Made by a program: the position numbers and the translations under genes. Below the pieces are notes generated by a model, which was not told the DNA's origin, searched no databases, and saw nothing but the letters and a program-made list of their open reading frames with translations. From a virus, in IMG/VR virus record IMGVR_UViG_3300035703_000441, positions 1 to 21,341 of that record: DNA of 21,341 bases. One strand, written 5' to 3'. Below are positions 2,604-21,164 of the stretch, one piece after another; position 1 is the first letter of the stretch, and every line of letters begins with the position of its first letter.

Positions 2604-3025
2604 CAGGCCAAGGTCAAAACACCGGTGGTCGGATCGAAGTCAACAGCAAAGCTTTCGCCAGCAGCCAAGGTGACGGCACTGCCGTAGTCCCACCAGCCAA
2701 TCAGCTCGTCACTGGTAGCGGTGTCGTTGTAAAGCACGGCATAGCGGAAGGGACCGATGCTGCCGCCGCTAGCGGTCCATGTGGCCGGATCGCCGAGCAC
2801 CAGCTTGTAAGTGCCGGAGGTCTGGGCCGAGCTAGTGACCGATGCGGTGTTGCCACCAGCGGTGTAACCGTTGCCGGCACTGATCTCCGTCAAATCCGCC
2901 TTCACGCTGTTGGTGGCAACAGGCGCGGTGTTGGTCAGCAGCACCTTCAGCGTGTCGGCGCCCAGGTCATGCTTCTTTTCGGCTAACGCCTCCACGAAGC
3001 TGTTGAACTTATTGAACGCAGCCAT
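2603..3025 (-). CDS. Conserved phage structural protein, tail-fibre neighbourhood
   Basis: A 140-residue protein beginning MAAFNKFNSFVEALAEKKHD. It carries the pattern DTLKVLLTNTAPVATN, EI.AGNGYTAGG, GPFRYAVLYNDT, LIGWWDYGS and a final DFDPTTGVLTLA. I recognise this as a widespread phage protein found beside tail fibre genes, usually annotated only as a structural or tail protein. It starts at 3025, 19 bases after a copy of the GGCAACCTA motif, and has no Shine-Dalgarno core. Its stop overlaps the start of the next gene. The family is recognised; the function is not established. Confidence 0.85.
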   Translation of the reverse strand: MAAFNKFNSFVEALAEKKHDLGADTLKVLLTNTAPVATNSVKADLTEISAGNGYTAGGNTASVTSSAQTSGTYKLVLGDPATWTASGGSIGPFRYAVLYNDTATSDELIGWWDYGSAVTLAAGESFAVDFDPTTGVLTLA

Positions 3026-3044
3026 GAACGCAGGGCTTTGGAGC

Positions 3045-3053
3045 TAGGTTGCC
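3045..3053 (-). promoter_or_regulatory. Start-associated motif GGCAACCTA before gene 2603-3025
   Basis: Exact copy, 19 bases before the ATG at 3025. Its first G is the last base of the TAG stop of the hub-adhesin gene. No GGAG/GAGG sequence lies between motif and start. Whether it acts in transcription, translation or RNA processing cannot be told from sequence. Confidence 0.65.
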
Positions 3054-9615: not shown

Positions 9616-9635
9616 AACACGCCTTCATGTGCTCT

Positions 9636-9644
9636 TAAGTTGCC
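9636..9644 (-). promoter_or_regulatory. Start-associated motif GGCAACTTA before the tape measure gene
   Basis: Exact copy of GGCAACYTA, 20 bases before the GTG at 9615. It is one half of a back-to-back pair in the 51-base divergent region; the other half is at 9654-9662 on the plus strand. No sigma-70 -10 hexamer is apparent in these 51 bases on either strand. Confidence 0.65.
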
Positions 9645-9653
9645 GCTGATCGC

Positions 9654-9662
9654 GGGAACCTA
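9654..9662 (+). promoter_or_regulatory. Start-associated motif variant GGGAACCTA before the plus-strand cassette
   Basis: Eight of nine positions match GGCAACCTA, and it is the only start-associated copy on the plus strand, in front of the only plus-strand genes. The gap to the ATG at 9667 is just 4 bases, the main spacing exception. It is separated from the minus-strand copy by 9 bases. Confidence 0.55.
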
Positions 9663-9666
9663 GGCC

Positions 9667-10062
9667 ATGACTAGCGATCTCGCTGCACTGGCCAACGCCA
9701 CTGCAATCTTCACGGTCCCAACCGTTGGCACAGTCACTGATCCCGTCACCGGCAACGTTGTGCCGGCCACGGAAACAGTCACGGTCAGCTTGTACCTGCG
9801 TCAAGGCAGCACCAGGGCCTTGGACTTTCCTGGCGTTGACACTGAAGTTGAGACCTACGAGGGCTATGCGGTCAGTCCGCAGGCACTGGATGCCCGCATT
9901 AAGCCCGGTGTGGTTGGCACGCTCAACTTCGCTGGTCAAGGCGCCATTGACTGCGAAGTGATCAACAGCCGCTACCCCTACGGCACCACGGGCCTGATCG
10001 GCAGCACCGTGCAGCAGGTGATCGGCGACAAGATCCGGCTGGCCCGCTACGTGCAAGGCTGA
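9667..10062 (+). CDS. Putative head closure / head-tail connector protein
   Basis: A 131-residue, beta-rich, soluble protein with TETVTVSLYLRQGS near its middle and DKIRLARYVQG at the end. Size and strand content fit the SPP1 gp16-like head closure proteins that plug the portal after packaging, and such genes normally sit directly before a gp10-like neck gene, as here. It reads on the plus strand, opposite to all its functional partners. The stop overlaps the next start as TGATG. The ATG has no Shine-Dalgarno but a motif copy 4 bases upstream. Function is inferred from size and context, not from a diagnostic motif. Confidence 0.6.
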   Translation: MTSDLAALANATAIFTVPTVGTVTDPVTGNVVPATETVTVSLYLRQGSTRALDFPGVDTEVETYEGYAVSPQALDARIKPGVVGTLNFAGQGAIDCEVINSRYPYGTTGLIGSTVQQVIGDKIRLARYVQG

Positions 10063-10496
10063 TGCCAGTTCAGGTCAAGGCCAACTTCAAGCTGACCGGC
10101 TGGAATGCCAATCAGCTCAAGCTGCGCGTGCCGCAGATCCTGACCACCTACGGCAAGGTCTTGGGTGATCAGCTCAAGGAAGAAATCAAGACGCCGCAGT
10201 TCAGGTGGCCTCGTGCCACCAAACGCCGCAATGGGCAGACCGTTACCAGTCCCCGAGACATCGTGGACCTTGGCGGTCTGCTGCGATCTCAGCGGCGTGA
10301 TCGCCCCAGTGCCACGCAGCTACGGTTTACGTGGAACACGCCCTATGCGGGTTTGATCCTGAATGGCTATGTCACAGGCATTAAAGGCACTGTGGTTGAT
10401 GGCCGGAACTGGATCAAACCAGCACTTGAAAAGCAACCGCTAGATCGCTTCTTTGCTGAGCAGTGGCGACGCCTAGACGGCATCGGCGGACTGTAG
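10062..10496 (+). CDS. HK97 gp10-like neck / tail completion protein
   Basis: A 144-residue basic protein. The features I associate with gp10-like phage proteins are an N-terminal helix (QILTTYGKVLGDQLKEEIK), a DIVDLGGLLRSQ element, WNTPYAGLILNGY with an aromatic loop, and a final RNWIKPALEK..LDRFFAEQW helix. These proteins act at the head-tail junction. Start overlaps the previous stop (TGATG), so the two plus-strand genes form a small coupled operon. It ends facing the tail tube gene, with a terminator hairpin in the gap. Confidence 0.72.
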   Translation: MPVQVKANFKLTGWNANQLKLRVPQILTTYGKVLGDQLKEEIKTPQFRWPRATKRRNGQTVTSPRDIVDLGGLLRSQRRDRPSATQLRFTWNTPYAGLILNGYVTGIKGTVVDGRNWIKPALEKQPLDRFFAEQWRRLDGIGGL

Positions 10497-10542: not shown

Positions 10543-10558
10543 GACAACCTAAGTTGCT
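10543..10558. promoter_or_regulatory. Near-palindromic double copy of the start-associated motif, no gene attached
   Basis: The core CAACCTAAGTTG reads almost the same on both strands: GACAACCTA forward (10543-10551) and AGCAACTTA reverse (10558-10550). Each differs from the consensus at one position. It sits between the convergent ends of the neck gene and the tail tube gene, overlapping the last base of the tube stop codon. No start codon lies at the usual distance on either strand. Confidence 0.5.
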
Positions 10559-11037
10559 CAGGCGTTGGTCTCAGCAGACCAGGAATACGAGCCGTAGCCC
10601 GACAGGGTAAAGCTAACGGTGGCCACGTTGCCTGCAGCAATCGACTCCGAGAAGTCGGTCACGAAGGCCACGCCGGAGTGATATTCAGGGCTACCGGTGC
10701 TGCTCATCTCAGGCGATTCGCGATACCACTCAACAGTGGTGCCACCAGCGGCATTCAGGGCTGCGTTTTTCAGCACCGCATAACCAGCATCGTTCAGGTT
10801 CAGGTTCATCTCGCAGGGGATGGTGTAAGCCTGCGTGGTCACCAGCGAAGCGGTAAAGCCCAGCGTGCTGCCGTAGTCCTGCACTTCCTGCGTTTGGCTG
10901 GTGCCCTGGATGCCAGCGTTGGTCAGGGACAGCACCTCAGTCATGCCGGTGCTGGCAGTGGGGTTGGTGCTAGCGGTGGTGCCGGCCTTCACATAGAACC
11001 GATACCCCAGCGAGTTAAAAAAGGCACCGGTGGCCAT
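10558..11037 (-). CDS. Major tail tube protein
   Basis: A 159-residue beta-rich protein with the signature ending of tail tube proteins: GVAFVTDFSESIAAGNVATVSFTL followed by SGYGSYSW, and a central TIPCEMNLNLNDAGY segment. Tube proteins polymerise as stacked hexamers around the tape measure. It lies between the sigma-like gene and the terminator, and is the last gene of the right-hand minus-strand block. A GGCAACCTA copy lies 24 bases before the ATG; no Shine-Dalgarno is seen. High expression would be expected, which fits having its own motif and a strong terminator. No separate tail terminator gene was recognised nearby. Confidence 0.85.
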   Translation of the reverse strand: MATGAFFNSLGYRFYVKAGTTASTNPTASTGMTEVLSLTNAGIQGTSQTQEVQDYGSTLGFTASLVTTQAYTIPCEMNLNLNDAGYAVLKNAALNAAGGTTVEWYRESPEMSSTGSPEYHSGVAFVTDFSESIAAGNVATVSFTLSGYGSYSWSAETNA

Positions 11038-11061
11038 GACTTAAACCTGTGGCGTGTGCCT

Positions 11062-11070
11062 TAGGTTGCC
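11062..11070 (-). promoter_or_regulatory. Start-associated motif GGCAACCTA before the tail tube gene
   Basis: Exact copy continuing as AAGG, starting 1 base beyond the stop codon of the sigma-like gene and 24 bases before the ATG at 11037, slightly more than the usual 19-20. Confidence 0.62.
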
Positions 11071-11071
11071 C

Positions 11072-11650
11072 CTAACTAGCAGCAGCCTCTTCCTCAGCCT
11101 CAAGCACCTCCCACGGCGTCATGCGCGGGCACACGTGCAGATCAAAGCCCTTCACGTCGTGAGCCACGCCTGCGGTCGCTAAGAGAGCTTCCTTGAGGTC
11201 TTGCTTGCTGCAGCTCAGCTCCTTGCAGATTGCTGCTGGCTGCCAGCCCAACGCCATCAGCCGCCTGGCGTTATTGCCTAGCAGTCGCACCTTGTGGGTC
11301 GCCTTAATCGTCCAGTTGTGACCGCGCAGGAAGTGCAGCACCTCACCTTGAGCAAAGCTCCAGAAGATCGTGCTCAACTTCCCCTTCTCCGGGTTCCAGG
11401 CACGGCACGCCTTCAGAAAGGCGATGTCACAGCAGGAGAAGATGTCCTCCTTGGCCATGCAGTGGCTGTATTTCCGGCACAGCTTCCCGCCGAACATCTT
11501 GATCAGGCCGATGTTCTCGGCATACATGCGCCCAAACCGCCGCTGTTCCTCGCGGGTCAGTGGTTTAGCAAGGTGTCCTTCGCTGCGCTTTTTCTCCGGT
11601 GCAGCGGCCGGAGTGCTGAAGAAATCAAGCTGGCCTTCAGCAACGCGCAT
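11072..11650 (-). CDS. Phage sigma-factor-like protein (region 2 plus helix-turn-helix)
   Basis: 192 residues from ATG 11650. Residues about 44-118 follow sigma-70 region 2: ENIGLIKMFGGKLC, then EDIFSCCDIAFLKACRAWNPEKGK, then LSTIFWSFAQGEVLHFLR and NWTIK. This parallels the gl..A...fdp..G..FSTya...irGEi.hfLR pattern of group 3 sigma factors. Residues about 134-158 (GWQPAAICKELSCSKQDLKEAL) look like a helix-turn-helix that could stand for region 4. The predicted role is redirecting host RNA polymerase to phage late promoters. The frame opens farther up (11716), but that would overlap the adaptor gene by 61 bases; ATG 11650 lies 5 bases past its stop. A non-sigma DNA-binding protein is the alternative. 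Confidence 0.68.
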   Translation of the reverse strand: MRVAEGQLDFFSTPAAAPEKKRSEGHLAKPLTREEQRRFGRMYAENIGLIKMFGGKLCRKYSHCMAKEDIFSCCDIAFLKACRAWNPEKGKLSTIFWSFAQGEVLHFLRGHNWTIKATHKVRLLGNNARRLMALGWQPAAICKELSCSKQDLKEALLATAGVAHDVKGFDLHVCPRMTPWEVLEAEEEAAAS

Positions 11651-11655
11651 CTTCC

Positions 11656-12213
11656 CTAACTTCGGAGGACAGTGCGCGACCCGAAGGCTGACGCTGCGGT
11701 GCTGGTGCATAAGCATCCCAACACTTTAGTCAAGTGCGGTAGGACGTTTAATGCGTTCTTGCTATCAGCCTGTGGTGTTGTATTGAACTCCACGCTGATC
11801 ACATCAATCTGCGCACGCTTGAGGTTGGCATTCGGGATGCCGCTGATCAGTTCGCTACTGCCAGCGCCAGCGGTTGACAGAGCATTGCTATCACCGAGCA
11901 GGTATTCGGCCAGATCAAAGGTGGCCTGCTTGATCGGCTTGGGGATCTCGCTGCTGGTGAAGCTCCAGTCACCGCACTCCGCTTCCGTGCGAGGCCAGAG
12001 CAGCGCTTGCGTGCTGGCGGCTTTTTCACCGATGTAGCTCAGCTCATCGAGATAGCGCGTGGCCATGATCAGCGCACGACCTTTGTTGTCGGTGCTCGCT
12101 GAGGCCCAGTTGAGGGTGCCGAGGTACAGATCAGCCAGATCGTCCGCAGCCGCAACTGTCAGATAGCTGTTGGCGTTCGACGCACCAGCAGTAGCAACGA
12201 CAGTGACGGTCAT
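11656..12213 (-). CDS. Head-tail adaptor, DnaT-like family
   Basis: 185 residues with the pattern of the phage DnaT-like (PF20557-type) adaptor family: NSYLTVAAADDLADLYLG, W..AS.DNKGRALIMATRYLDEL, then QALLWPRTEAE and IPKPIKQATFDLAEYLL. In head-tail modules such proteins form the ring below the portal; the family name comes from similarity and does not imply DNA replication. It sits between the gp7/F-type head protein and the sigma-like gene. The ATG at 12213 is exactly 19 bases after a GGCAACCTA copy. The C-terminal 20 residues are low in recognisable features. Confidence 0.8.
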   Translation of the reverse strand: MTVTVVATAGASNANSYLTVAAADDLADLYLGTLNWASASTDNKGRALIMATRYLDELSYIGEKAASTQALLWPRTEAECGDWSFTSSEIPKPIKQATFDLAEYLLGDSNALSTAGAGSSELISGIPNANLKRAQIDVISVEFNTTPQADSKNALNVLPHLTKVLGCLCTSTAASAFGSRTVLRS

Positions 12214-12231: not shown

Positions 12232-13257
12232 CTAGGTTGCCCGTCTGGGCTTGGGTGACTGCCAGAGCTTGACGGCACGATCAAAGCTGATCTCACCGTC
12301 TACCAAGCGTTGACCAAGCTTCTTGCCAAAGATCGCCTGAGCAGTCTCGGGGTTGTCTTTGACCCACTGCTTGGCAGCCACCTTGAACGACAGCGCACCT
12401 TCAGCGCCATCACCATCAGCCAGGCGATTGGGCTGCACCGGGTTGCCCTGTGGATCGGTCATCGTCTCGTTGCGCCATTTCCAAGGCAGGACTACACATC
12501 TACACTGAAAATGCGGTGATACCTTCCGGTAAGTAGCTGGAAATCGCTTGCCATCCAGCTTCAAGCAGATTGGGCAAACGTCGGAATCCAGCACTGCAGT
12601 CCAGGCCAAGCCGTCCGGTCCCATCCAGTCAGGATCGGCTTCAAACTCATAGATCGCCTGCTGCGCGGCGTTGCCCACTTCCTGCACACCTGTGCGGATC
12701 AAGGCCTCCACGTTGTTCTCGGTGATGCGCACCACAGCGCTCTCGTAGGTGGCGAAGGTTTCACCGCCGATGTCCGAGAGGCCAAGGCGTGCAAAGCGCT
12801 CCACACGATCCGCGACAAGTGCCGGCAGGCTTTGCGTGAGCTGTGTGCTCAGCGTCTTGCCAGCCACCACCGCGTCATTAACGATGCGCTGCACCTGAGC
12901 CGTCGATGCGGACGCTGCACCTTCATTGATCAAATCACCGCCGGCCATGGTGACCATGCGGCGGGCAAAGCTCAGCTGCTGCTCTACAAACGGTCGCAGG
13001 GCGTCCTGCAGCGCAGCCAGTTGCGGCACACCGAAGCTCTCCTGCACGCTGCGGGCCACAGCCGCCACCACCGCATTGATGGTCTGCTCACGGCCTGGCC
13101 CAAAGCTCAGCACACCCGACTGACCGACGACGCGCTCTACAGCCGTCAGCGTCGTGCGCAGGTCTCGTAGTGCTTGCCTGATCAGGCGATCTTCCAGCTG
13201 TTTTTGCCGCAGCGCATTGCGAAGGAACTCCTCAACTTGCTGCGACAGATCAGCCAC
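12232..13257 (-). CDS. Head morphogenesis / minor capsid protein, SPP1 gp7 - Mu gpF type
   Basis: 341 residues. The C-terminal part has the family's zinc-type signature: WTAVLDSDVCPICLKLDGKRF with Cys228 and Cys231, followed by PHFQCRCVVLPW with His249, Cys252 and Cys254. The N-terminal two thirds are helical, as usual. Members bind the portal and act in prohead assembly and early DNA ejection. It starts with GTG at 13257 inside the end of the 45-residue gene (8-base overlap), with GAGGACAAGGGC as ribosome site. Its final codons GCA ACC TAG are themselves part of the next motif copy, so the protein ends Ala-Thr. Unusually, it follows the capsid gene instead of the portal. Confidence 0.9.
   Translation of the reverse strand: MADLSQQVEEFLRNALRQKQLEDRLIRQALRDLRTTLTAVERVVGQSGVLSFGPGREQTINAVVAAVARSVQESFGVPQLAALQDALRPFVEQQLSFARRMVTMAGGDLINEGAASASTAQVQRIVNDAVVAGKTLSTQLTQSLPALVADRVERFARLGLSDIGGETFATYESAVVRITENNVEALIRTGVQEVGNAAQQAIYEFEADPDWMGPDGLAWTAVLDSDVCPICLKLDGKRFPATYRKVSPHFQCRCVVLPWKWRNETMTDPQGNPVQPNRLADGDGAEGALSFKVAAKQWVKDNPETAQAIFGKKLGQRLVDGEISFDRAVKLWQSPKPRRAT
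12233..12241 (-). promoter_or_regulatory. Start-associated motif GGCAACCTA before the adaptor gene
   Basis: Exact copy, 19 bases before ATG 12213. It overlaps the last codons and TAG stop of the head morphogenesis gene, so the same bases serve as coding sequence and motif. Confidence 0.65.
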
Positions 13258-15642: not shown

Positions 15643-15670
15643 GTAGAGCCACAGGCTCAGAGTTGCTGAT

Positions 15671-15679
15671 TAGGTTGCC
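15671..15679 (-). promoter_or_regulatory. Start-associated motif GGCAACCTA before the scaffold gene
   Basis: Exact copy in the 59-base gap between the small membrane protein gene and the scaffold gene, 28 bases before ATG 15642. This is the longest spacing among the copies. Confidence 0.6.
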
Positions 15680-17084: not shown

Positions 17085-17103
17085 TGAACCCAGCCTTTAG
17101 AGC

Positions 17104-17112
17104 TAGGTTTCC
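17104..17112 (-). promoter_or_regulatory. Start-associated motif variant GGAAACCTA before the basic protein gene
   Basis: One mismatch to GGCAACCTA, in the 36-base gap after the portal stop, exactly 19 bases before ATG 17084. The following bases GCTC are the same as after the copy at 3045-3053. Confidence 0.6.
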
Positions 17113-18569: not shown

Positions 18570-18588
18570 AGCCTTTCGCTCGATCACT

Positions 18589-18597
18589 TAAGTTGCC
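18589..18597 (-). promoter_or_regulatory. Start-associated motif GGCAACTTA before the portal gene
   Basis: Exact copy of GGCAACYTA, 24 bases past the terminase stop and 19 bases before GTG 18569. The next bases AAG match the copy in front of the tape measure gene. Confidence 0.62.
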
Positions 18598-20299: not shown

Positions 20300-20614
20300 T
20301 TAACCGGAGGAGGGCATGAGGAGGGTGCCGTCTGAGGCGAGGATATTAAGCTTGTCTTCAGCGTCTTGAAAGGAGCGTGCCCAGATGGTGGCTAGGCGTG
20401 CGACGGGTTCTGGTGCGACGAAGTAGAGAAAGAGGTAGTGACCTTTGAGGGAACGATGGCCGTTGGTGGGGAGGTAGCCACCGGTGAGGCGGAAGGTGGC
20501 GAGGAGATTGCGTGCGATGTGTTCAGCGAGTTCTGGGTCAACGTCGTGTTGAAGGACCAGGCCGAAGGGTTCGCCTGTTGCGGGATCTTCAGCAACGATG
20601 GACCAGGGTTCCAT
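20300..20614 (-). CDS. Unknown 104-residue protein upstream of terminase
   Basis: Starts MEPWSIVAEDPATGEPFG and continues DPELAEHIARNLLATFRLTGG, then HYLFLYFVAPEPVARLATIW. Mixed alpha/beta, soluble, mildly acidic. The open frame extends farther upstream to 20770, but that would overlap RusA. ATG 20614 gives a 20-base spacing to an exact motif copy, and the upstream residues look like antisense noise. No family recognised. Its place between a resolvase and terminase suggests a packaging or DNA-processing accessory, which is only a guess. Confidence 0.68.
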   Translation of the reverse strand: MEPWSIVAEDPATGEPFGLVLQHDVDPELAEHIARNLLATFRLTGGYLPTNGHRSLKGHYLFLYFVAPEPVARLATIWARSFQDAEDKLNILASDGTLLMPSSG

Positions 20615-20633: not shown

Positions 20634-21164
20634 TTAGGTTGCCAAGGGGATGATGGTGATGAGAGCACCGGGTTTTTCTTCTGCGGTGCAGTAGCGCTTG
20701 TGGGCAGCCAGCTGAACCACTTGAGAATCGTCGTGAAGAAGTGAGCCAGTGAGGGCATCAAGCACGGCACGGGAAAGTTTGTCGATGTCGCCCTTTAGGC
20801 GAGAGGTTAGGTGGGCTGGTGCTTTGGGGGATAGGCCAGATTTGTTGTAGTGGCCTTTGGGGCGTAGGAAGCGAAAGGTTATTGAGATCGAGACCGGGTG
20901 ATTGATTAGGGGGTTGTTGGTTGCTAGGGCTGCGTCGGTGACGAGAGAGCGCCAAGGACGTAGGCGTTGATTGGTTTCGCGCATGATGCCGTGACCGACG
21001 TGGCGTTTAGAGCCTTGGGTAGCGGCTTCCATGCCGATAACGTTGAAGGTGATGGCACTAGGCGCGGATGAGGATGGTGGTGGTGTTGATGCGTTGCTGT
21101 TCTCGTTCAAGCCACCAGCGTTCAGCGGTGAGAGCACTGGCAGGATCTGCGGAGAAGGTGCCAT
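20634..21164 (-). CDS. rusA: RusA-type Holliday junction resolvase (start uncertain)
   Basis: The RusA core is clear: ITFNVIG near the N-terminus, TQGSKRHVGHGIM and LRPWRSLV, then GDIDKLSRAVLDALTGSLLHDDSQVVQLAAHKRY with the catalytic-type Asp126, Asp128, Lys129 and Asp145/146 (numbered from 21164). RusA dimers cut four-way junctions; in phages they trim recombined or branched DNA before packaging, fitting its place beside terminase. The start is unresolved. ATG 21164 adds about 36 Pro/Ser-rich residues that overlap a better gene (21058-21234), while ATG 21032 would cut off the first strand. A rare start near 21053 is possible. The final codons GCA ACC TAA are part of a motif copy. Confidence 0.85.
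   Translation of the reverse strand: MAPSPQILPVLSPLNAGGLNENSNASTPPPSSSAPSAITFNVIGMEAATQGSKRHVGHGIMRETNQRLRPWRSLVTDAALATNNPLINHPVSISITFRFLRPKGHYNKSGLSPKAPAHLTSRLKGDIDKLSRAVLDALTGSLLHDDSQVVQLAAHKRYCTAEEKPGALITIIPLAT
20635..20643 (-). promoter_or_regulatory. Start-associated motif GGCAACCTA before the 104-residue gene
   Basis: Exact copy, 20 bases before ATG 20614. Its CTA overlaps the TAA stop of rusA, and its GCAACC encodes the last two residues, Ala-Thr, exactly as at 12233-12241. Confidence 0.65.

Follow-up and report, generated by a model that had tools for sequence, protein, structure and literature searches.

Phage σ factors that lack region 4 and work with single-element promoters are already known. 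In phiEco32 gp36, homology to region 4 is missing, and a single-element promoter precedes the middle and late genes, with transcription starting 6-8 bp downstream of it (PMC8948821). T4 gp55 is similar: it has a σ region 2 domain, no equivalent of region 4 in the same chain, and a sliding-clamp epitope placed on a variable linker (PMC2988020, PMC7892883). The σ gene considered here lies in a 21,341-base virus record (the whole of it is referred to as the window), which is part of a genome only, and it probably represents a new form of these arrangements, in a group of uncultivated, probably cyanobacterial siphoviruses.

The likeness to phiEco32 gp36 is that the window's σ also has no region 4 and that a single conserved element, with no -35 counterpart, stands before late genes. 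The elements themselves differ (tAATGTAtA in phiEco32, GGVAASYTAR in the window); unlike gp36, the window's σ is encoded inside the head-tail block and belongs to a clade with a clamp-like motif. With T4 gp55 it shares region 2 and the absence of region 4; a clamp-type motif in a variable segment of the σ of the window's clades may be a further parallel. T4, however, supplies the clamp itself (gp45), has the epitope at the C terminus and employs a coactivator (gp33), whereas the window's σ has an N-terminal motif of the bacterial-clamp consensus and retains region 3.

The locus

A first-pass annotation of the window had placed a σ-like protein inside the head-tail operon, between the adaptor and tail tube genes, without stating its strand. 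Both the protein and its position are borne out (the former by profile, structure and conservation), and the strand is the minus strand, the orientation of the ORF:

11072-11650, minus strand: short σ factor gene, 192 aa (ORF list, profile matches, model)
11656-12213, minus strand: head-tail adaptor Ad1, upstream neighbour (PF20557, phrog_477)
10558-11037, minus strand: major tail protein, downstream neighbour (phrog_1407/38654)
9667-10496, plus strand: two inverted genes, 131 and 144 aa (orientation kept in the first set of relatives)

An in-frame ATG lies further upstream, at 11716; starting there, the σ gene would overlap Ad1. The minus-strand head-tail block comprises TerS-like, TerL, portal, scaffold, major capsid protein, Mu F-like, Ad1, σ-like, major tail protein and tape measure genes. 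The inverted pair within it consists of neck/tail-completion-like genes; the 131-aa protein of the pair has no tblastn match among phage records.

The longest contigs of near relatives are mostly about 37-48 kb. Every locus of the first set of relatives that covers the region keeps the order Ad1, σ, major tail protein, two opposite-strand genes and tape measure, unchanged down to relatives at 44-48% identity. In some of the more distant, held-out relatives an extra ORF separates the σ and tail genes. One such ORF (L162:2518-3225, plus strand), which follows the σ gene, looks by eye like a homing endonuclease and has no Pfam match; the box described below is found again before the tail gene.

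A σ factor of regions 2 and 3

As judged from profiles and a predicted structure, the gene product is a σ70-family protein with regions 2 and 3:

11315-11554, minus strand: σ region 2, residues 33-112 (Pfam, structure, alignment)
11171-11314, minus strand: σ region 3, residues 113-160, containing the helix-turn-helix of the first-pass annotation (NCBIfam, structure, alignment)
11075-11170, minus strand: C-terminal tail aligning with region 3.2, after which the chain stops without region 4 (alignment)

The segments previously quoted as region 2-like occur verbatim in the ORF. Its similarity to σ factors exceeds chance: among PHROG families it scores E=5.9e-12 with phrog_351 ("RNA polymerase sigma factor") and 1.2e-5 with phrog_36098. 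Its matches to NCBIfam FliA_WhiG (E=1.1e-5, 25.3 bits against a curated cut-off of 189.6) and Pfam Sigma70_r2 (E=0.006, 16.8 bits against 24) are under the cut-offs; relatives L066, L074 and L084 pass the latter. The suggested resemblance to group 3 (FliA/SigF-like) σ factors thus holds in that these are the best NCBIfam matches, with scores far under the cut-offs of those families. PF04539 gave no score of its own for region 3 of the window protein.

An AlphaFold2 model built from 32 homologues (mean pLDDT 75; regions 2 and 3 mostly 80-94) finds σ factors as its structural matches in the PDB, aligned over residues 30-164, and so does another model, made for a relative with 47-48% identity. 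Structure prediction, which had been put forward as a check for an unrelated fold without the region 2 helices, returned the fold of region 2, the domain with which σ factors bind core and read the -10: that region of the model matches the SigE N-terminal domain (Z about 10, 77 residues aligned at 2.0 Å). When both domains are aligned together the rmsd is large, and region 2 by itself fits at about 2 Å; we read the difference as one of domain orientation. The C-terminal helix-turn-helix also exists (residues 119-158), but it belongs to region 3: the FliA profile and chain align to residue 158-160 and the model to residue 164, and profile and structure together rule out its being region 4. Aligned with full-length phage σ factors, the protein has regions 2 and 3, with the region 3 hairpin shortened, then the region 3.2-like tail, and then it ends.

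Region 4, a usual part of primary, group 2, group 3 and ECF σ factors, is absent from the window protein and from more than 90 distinct relatives, a feature that the first-pass annotation had not recorded, any more than the box before late genes and the N-terminal clamp-binding-like motif taken up below. The complete proteins among about 80 loci share one end point, just after the region 3.2-like tail, and the 47 distinct proteins of a separate scan stop there too. Across regions 2 and 3, 24 alignment columns stay invariant even among relatives with only about 45% identity; some region 2 positions are unlike those of primary σ factors. A subgroup (L077-L084) has an insertion of about 50 residues within region 3.

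Some relatives of the window also encode a full-length σ (304 aa, regions 1.2 to 4; L096:17286-18197, minus strand; L085:11575-12486, plus strand; L090:3307-4218, minus strand), and in these there may be a two-σ cascade. In three records the full-length σ gene is followed, some 170-180 nt past its end, by a GGGAACCTAG site. Small ORFs with weak matches to σ region 4 (G008:C1:18550-18627, G009:C1:8526-8603, G011:C1:9262-9330) sit in records that have no full-length σ, and might encode a separate region 4 partner or a mere helix-turn-helix.

A box before late genes

The 10-bp box GGVAASYTAR precedes nine gene starts of the window in the sense orientation, at 3-27 nt (mostly 18-23). Boxes fall mostly in the late half. 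Pattern search places those of the window as follows:

3044-3053, minus strand: GGCAACCTAG, 18 nt upstream of a gene that starts at 3025
9635-9644, minus strand: GGCAACTTAA, 19 nt upstream of the tape measure gene
9654-9663, plus strand: GGGAACCTAG, 3 nt upstream of the neck-like gene at 9667, which is inverted
11061-11070, minus strand: GGCAACCTAA, 23 nt upstream of the major tail protein gene
12232-12241, minus strand: GGCAACCTAG, 18 nt upstream of Ad1, with the σ gene behind
15670-15679, minus strand: GGCAACCTAA, 27 nt upstream of the scaffold gene
17103-17112, minus strand: GGAAACCTAG, 18 nt upstream of a 266-aa ORF
18588-18597, minus strand: GGCAACTTAA, 18 nt upstream of GTG 18569, the likely start of the portal gene as judged from relatives
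20634-20643, minus strand: GGCAACCTAA, 19 nt upstream of a likely ATG at 20614

A count that does not depend on the pattern has GGCAACCTA as the most over-represented 9-mer of the window (5 seen, 0.37 expected). In one relative (G005; L090, L091) a CTAGCGCTAG-like palindromic 9-mer, TAGCGCTAG, is over-represented, with 11 seen and 0.73 expected.

The 3-nt spacing before the inverted gene is at odds with a usual leader; either its mRNA has no leader or this box acts in the opposite direction. In the relatives examined, GGCAASCTAG-like sequences form an inverted pair in the 52-bp gap that separates the tape measure gene from the two inverted genes. A base-paired hairpin alone is ruled out as the meaning of this divergent repeat: distant relatives keep the box with mismatched arms. 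Where the tail gene and the inverted genes converge, the gap has two near-boxes that overlap in opposite orientations (window 10543-10558).

Across 42 non-redundant loci the box is present in 141 of 395 homologous upstream regions, distributed over 10 gene families, where 2000 permuted patterns applied to the same regions averaged 0.54 with a maximum of 22; because homologous regions share descent, such counts make the evidence look stronger than it is. Homology plays no part when the box recurs before different gene families of a single genome, and by that measure all six genomes with the short σ (6/6) have box-before-ORF counts above every one of 300 permutations. No excess is seen in the controls that lack the short σ: S-CBS1, S-CBS3, KBS-S-2A, PSS2 (its first 40 kb) and the phage that shares contig G001 with a relative of the window. 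Placement is selective: the box is found before the major tail protein gene at 40 of 42 loci and before Ad1 at 29 of 39, and it is absent before TerS, TerL, major capsid protein, Mu F, the σ gene itself (0/37) and others.

A scan with a distant subfamily supplied a held-out set of 47 new distinct σ factors. The strict box is near the σ stop codon in 24 of these. With positions 3 and 6 free the number rises to 40, with none in antisense and permutations averaging 0.1-0.2; since this relaxed form was defined after the held-out loci had been viewed, 24/47 is the clean number. Among the seven exceptions, the six with a located tail gene start have the box right before it, behind an intervening ORF.

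Aligning 128 distinct sites reveals no conserved element (no -35) upstream of the box, as expected for a σ without region 4. Positions 12-17, counted from the start of the box, are A-rich, and some clades have a TATA-like hexamer 3-4 bp past it. Two readings are open to it: the box could itself serve as the -10, or it could sit immediately 5' of a weak -10 and be read by region 3.

How late transcription might work

On the strength of these sequences and models, we consider it likely that the short protein is a late σ that does without region 4 and starts transcription at GGVAASYTAR, perhaps tethered to the sliding clamp in the window's clades. By way of region 2 the σ would bind the core RNA polymerase of the host, and its regions 2 and 3, making no -35 contact, would initiate at the box before late structural genes. 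No box precedes the σ gene itself, which follows the Ad1 box, so that σ, once made, would amplify its own transcription. A motif of the QLxLF type in the N-terminal tail, which is modelled with low confidence and is probably flexible, may in the window's clades tether the σ to the host's sliding clamp and thereby couple late transcription to DNA replication, much like gp55 and gp45 in T4; of all the steps this one is the least certain.

11618-11632, minus strand: QLDFF codons (residues 7-11), beta-clamp-binding-like motif (by the QLxLF consensus)

QLxLF is a published beta-clamp-binding consensus (PMC4549789). The N terminus in the window's clades is variable save for Q[LM]x[LFM][FL] (QLDLF, QLSLF, QLLLF, QLDFF and others), which is present in 42 of 46 distinct sequences, as judged by eye; the codons of its fixed residues show synonymous change, and its third residue varies freely. 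Within the first 35 residues the motif occurs in 6 of 328 ORFs of the same genomes, and most of the six are the σ itself. The pattern used fails to find it in 44 of the 47 held-out relatives (one of them cut at its 5' end), which rules it out as a trait of the whole family; part of clade C is also without it.

Can such a σ do without the clamp altogether? It might act by promoter choice alone, in the manner of phiEco32 gp36, with QLxLF serving as no functional tether, and we would give this an even chance of being right. Most of the held-out relatives have kept σ and box with the motif missing, and gp36 needs no clamp in the published account (PMC8948821). Against this stand the retention of the motif under synonymous change in the window's clades and its rarity in other ORFs. 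The bolder proposal is that replication-coupled late transcription evolved here independently of T4, with a σ lacking region 4 tethered to the host clamp by an N-terminal QLxLF in place of the -35 contact; from the sequences at hand we advance it tentatively, and on balance lean against it. If the tether is real, clamp-activated transcription, described in the papers cited here for T4-related phages, would have arisen a second time, and with a host clamp.

Searching 14 relative records, which may be incomplete, for a bacterial-type clamp gene (PF02767) found none, with positive controls detected. PolA was not found in the phages either, and a search of the relatives with PF09116 (gp45), run without a positive control, gave no clamp match. 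A literature search of partial coverage yielded no paper linking a non-T4 phage σ to a clamp. The full-length σ of KBS-S-2A (L102:7779-8708) has LQLPLIP at its C terminus, a sequence similar to a clamp-binding peptide, perhaps by chance.

What reads the box, and is it a promoter?

In six phage records and five controls the presence of the box goes with that of the short σ, and from this correlation we take GGVAASYTAR to be the probable late promoter of the short σ. It is unlikely, in our estimate, that the short σ acts elsewhere and that the box is read by another phage DNA-binding protein, a full-length phage σ or a host σ. The full-length σ of some relatives, and the TATA-like hexamer, which a host σ might use, leave room for this, box recognition by the short σ being deduced. 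However, two relatives (G010 and G013) have short σ and box but no full-length σ, and named phages with a full-length σ have no box; this pattern points to the short σ and disfavours the full-length one as reader. The missing -35 is likewise what a σ without region 4 would lead one to expect.

Could the box act in RNA instead, as a ribosome, processing or termination signal? The near-constant 18-23 nt separating many boxes from start codons and the inverted repeats that some boxes form would suit such an element, and yet we think it quite improbable. The distance for one and the same gene differs among relatives (14-24 nt for the major tail protein, 11-18 nt for portal), which argues against a ribosome signal; most box sites of the window have no inverted partner; many structural genes have no box; and presence of the box tracks the short σ across genomes.

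More remote still is a degenerate or repurposed σ without promoter function, for instance an anti-host factor sequestering core polymerase: the lost region 4 and deviant region 2 positions would permit it, but the strong conservation of regions 2 and 3, the fixed place in the late block and the matching box speak against it.

Read as a late σ with its own promoter, the pair amounts to a testable late-transcription switch, composed of a minimal σ of regions 2 and 3 and a likely promoter box, for widespread, uncultivated and probably cyanobacterial siphoviruses. It is compact enough to offer itself for study.

Named relatives and the host

Among 50,697 phage records the only named tblastn match is the "type III RNAP sigma factor" of Cyanophage PSS2 (GQ334450; 33% over 81 residues, E=7e-5). 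It matches the same PHROGs as the window's σ, but its gene adjoins terL instead of the adaptor and tail tube genes, it has no QLxLF, and there is no excess of boxes in the first 40 kb of the genome. The RpoD-like factors of S-CBS1, S-CBS3 and KBS-S-2A are also cyanosiphovirus σ factors, and a cousin of theirs is present in some relatives of the window; unlike the window's σ they are full length including region 4, are encoded outside the structural block and come with no box.

That the nearest named σ relative is from a cyanophage, and that relatives of Ad1 include cyanophages among others, are the clues to the host. The 106,734-base virus record behind L003 (G001) is apparently two phages joined, about 70 kb with structural genes of its own followed by a relative of the window; the ORFs of those first 70 kb look like another phage, so that they are rejected as host flank and give no host. 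A scan of genome contigs found one relative, from which no reliable host can be taken: L084 (RFRL01000240.1), with the same gene order, is on a 5.85-kb contig in a Planctomycetia MAG and is probably a phage contig binned there by chance.
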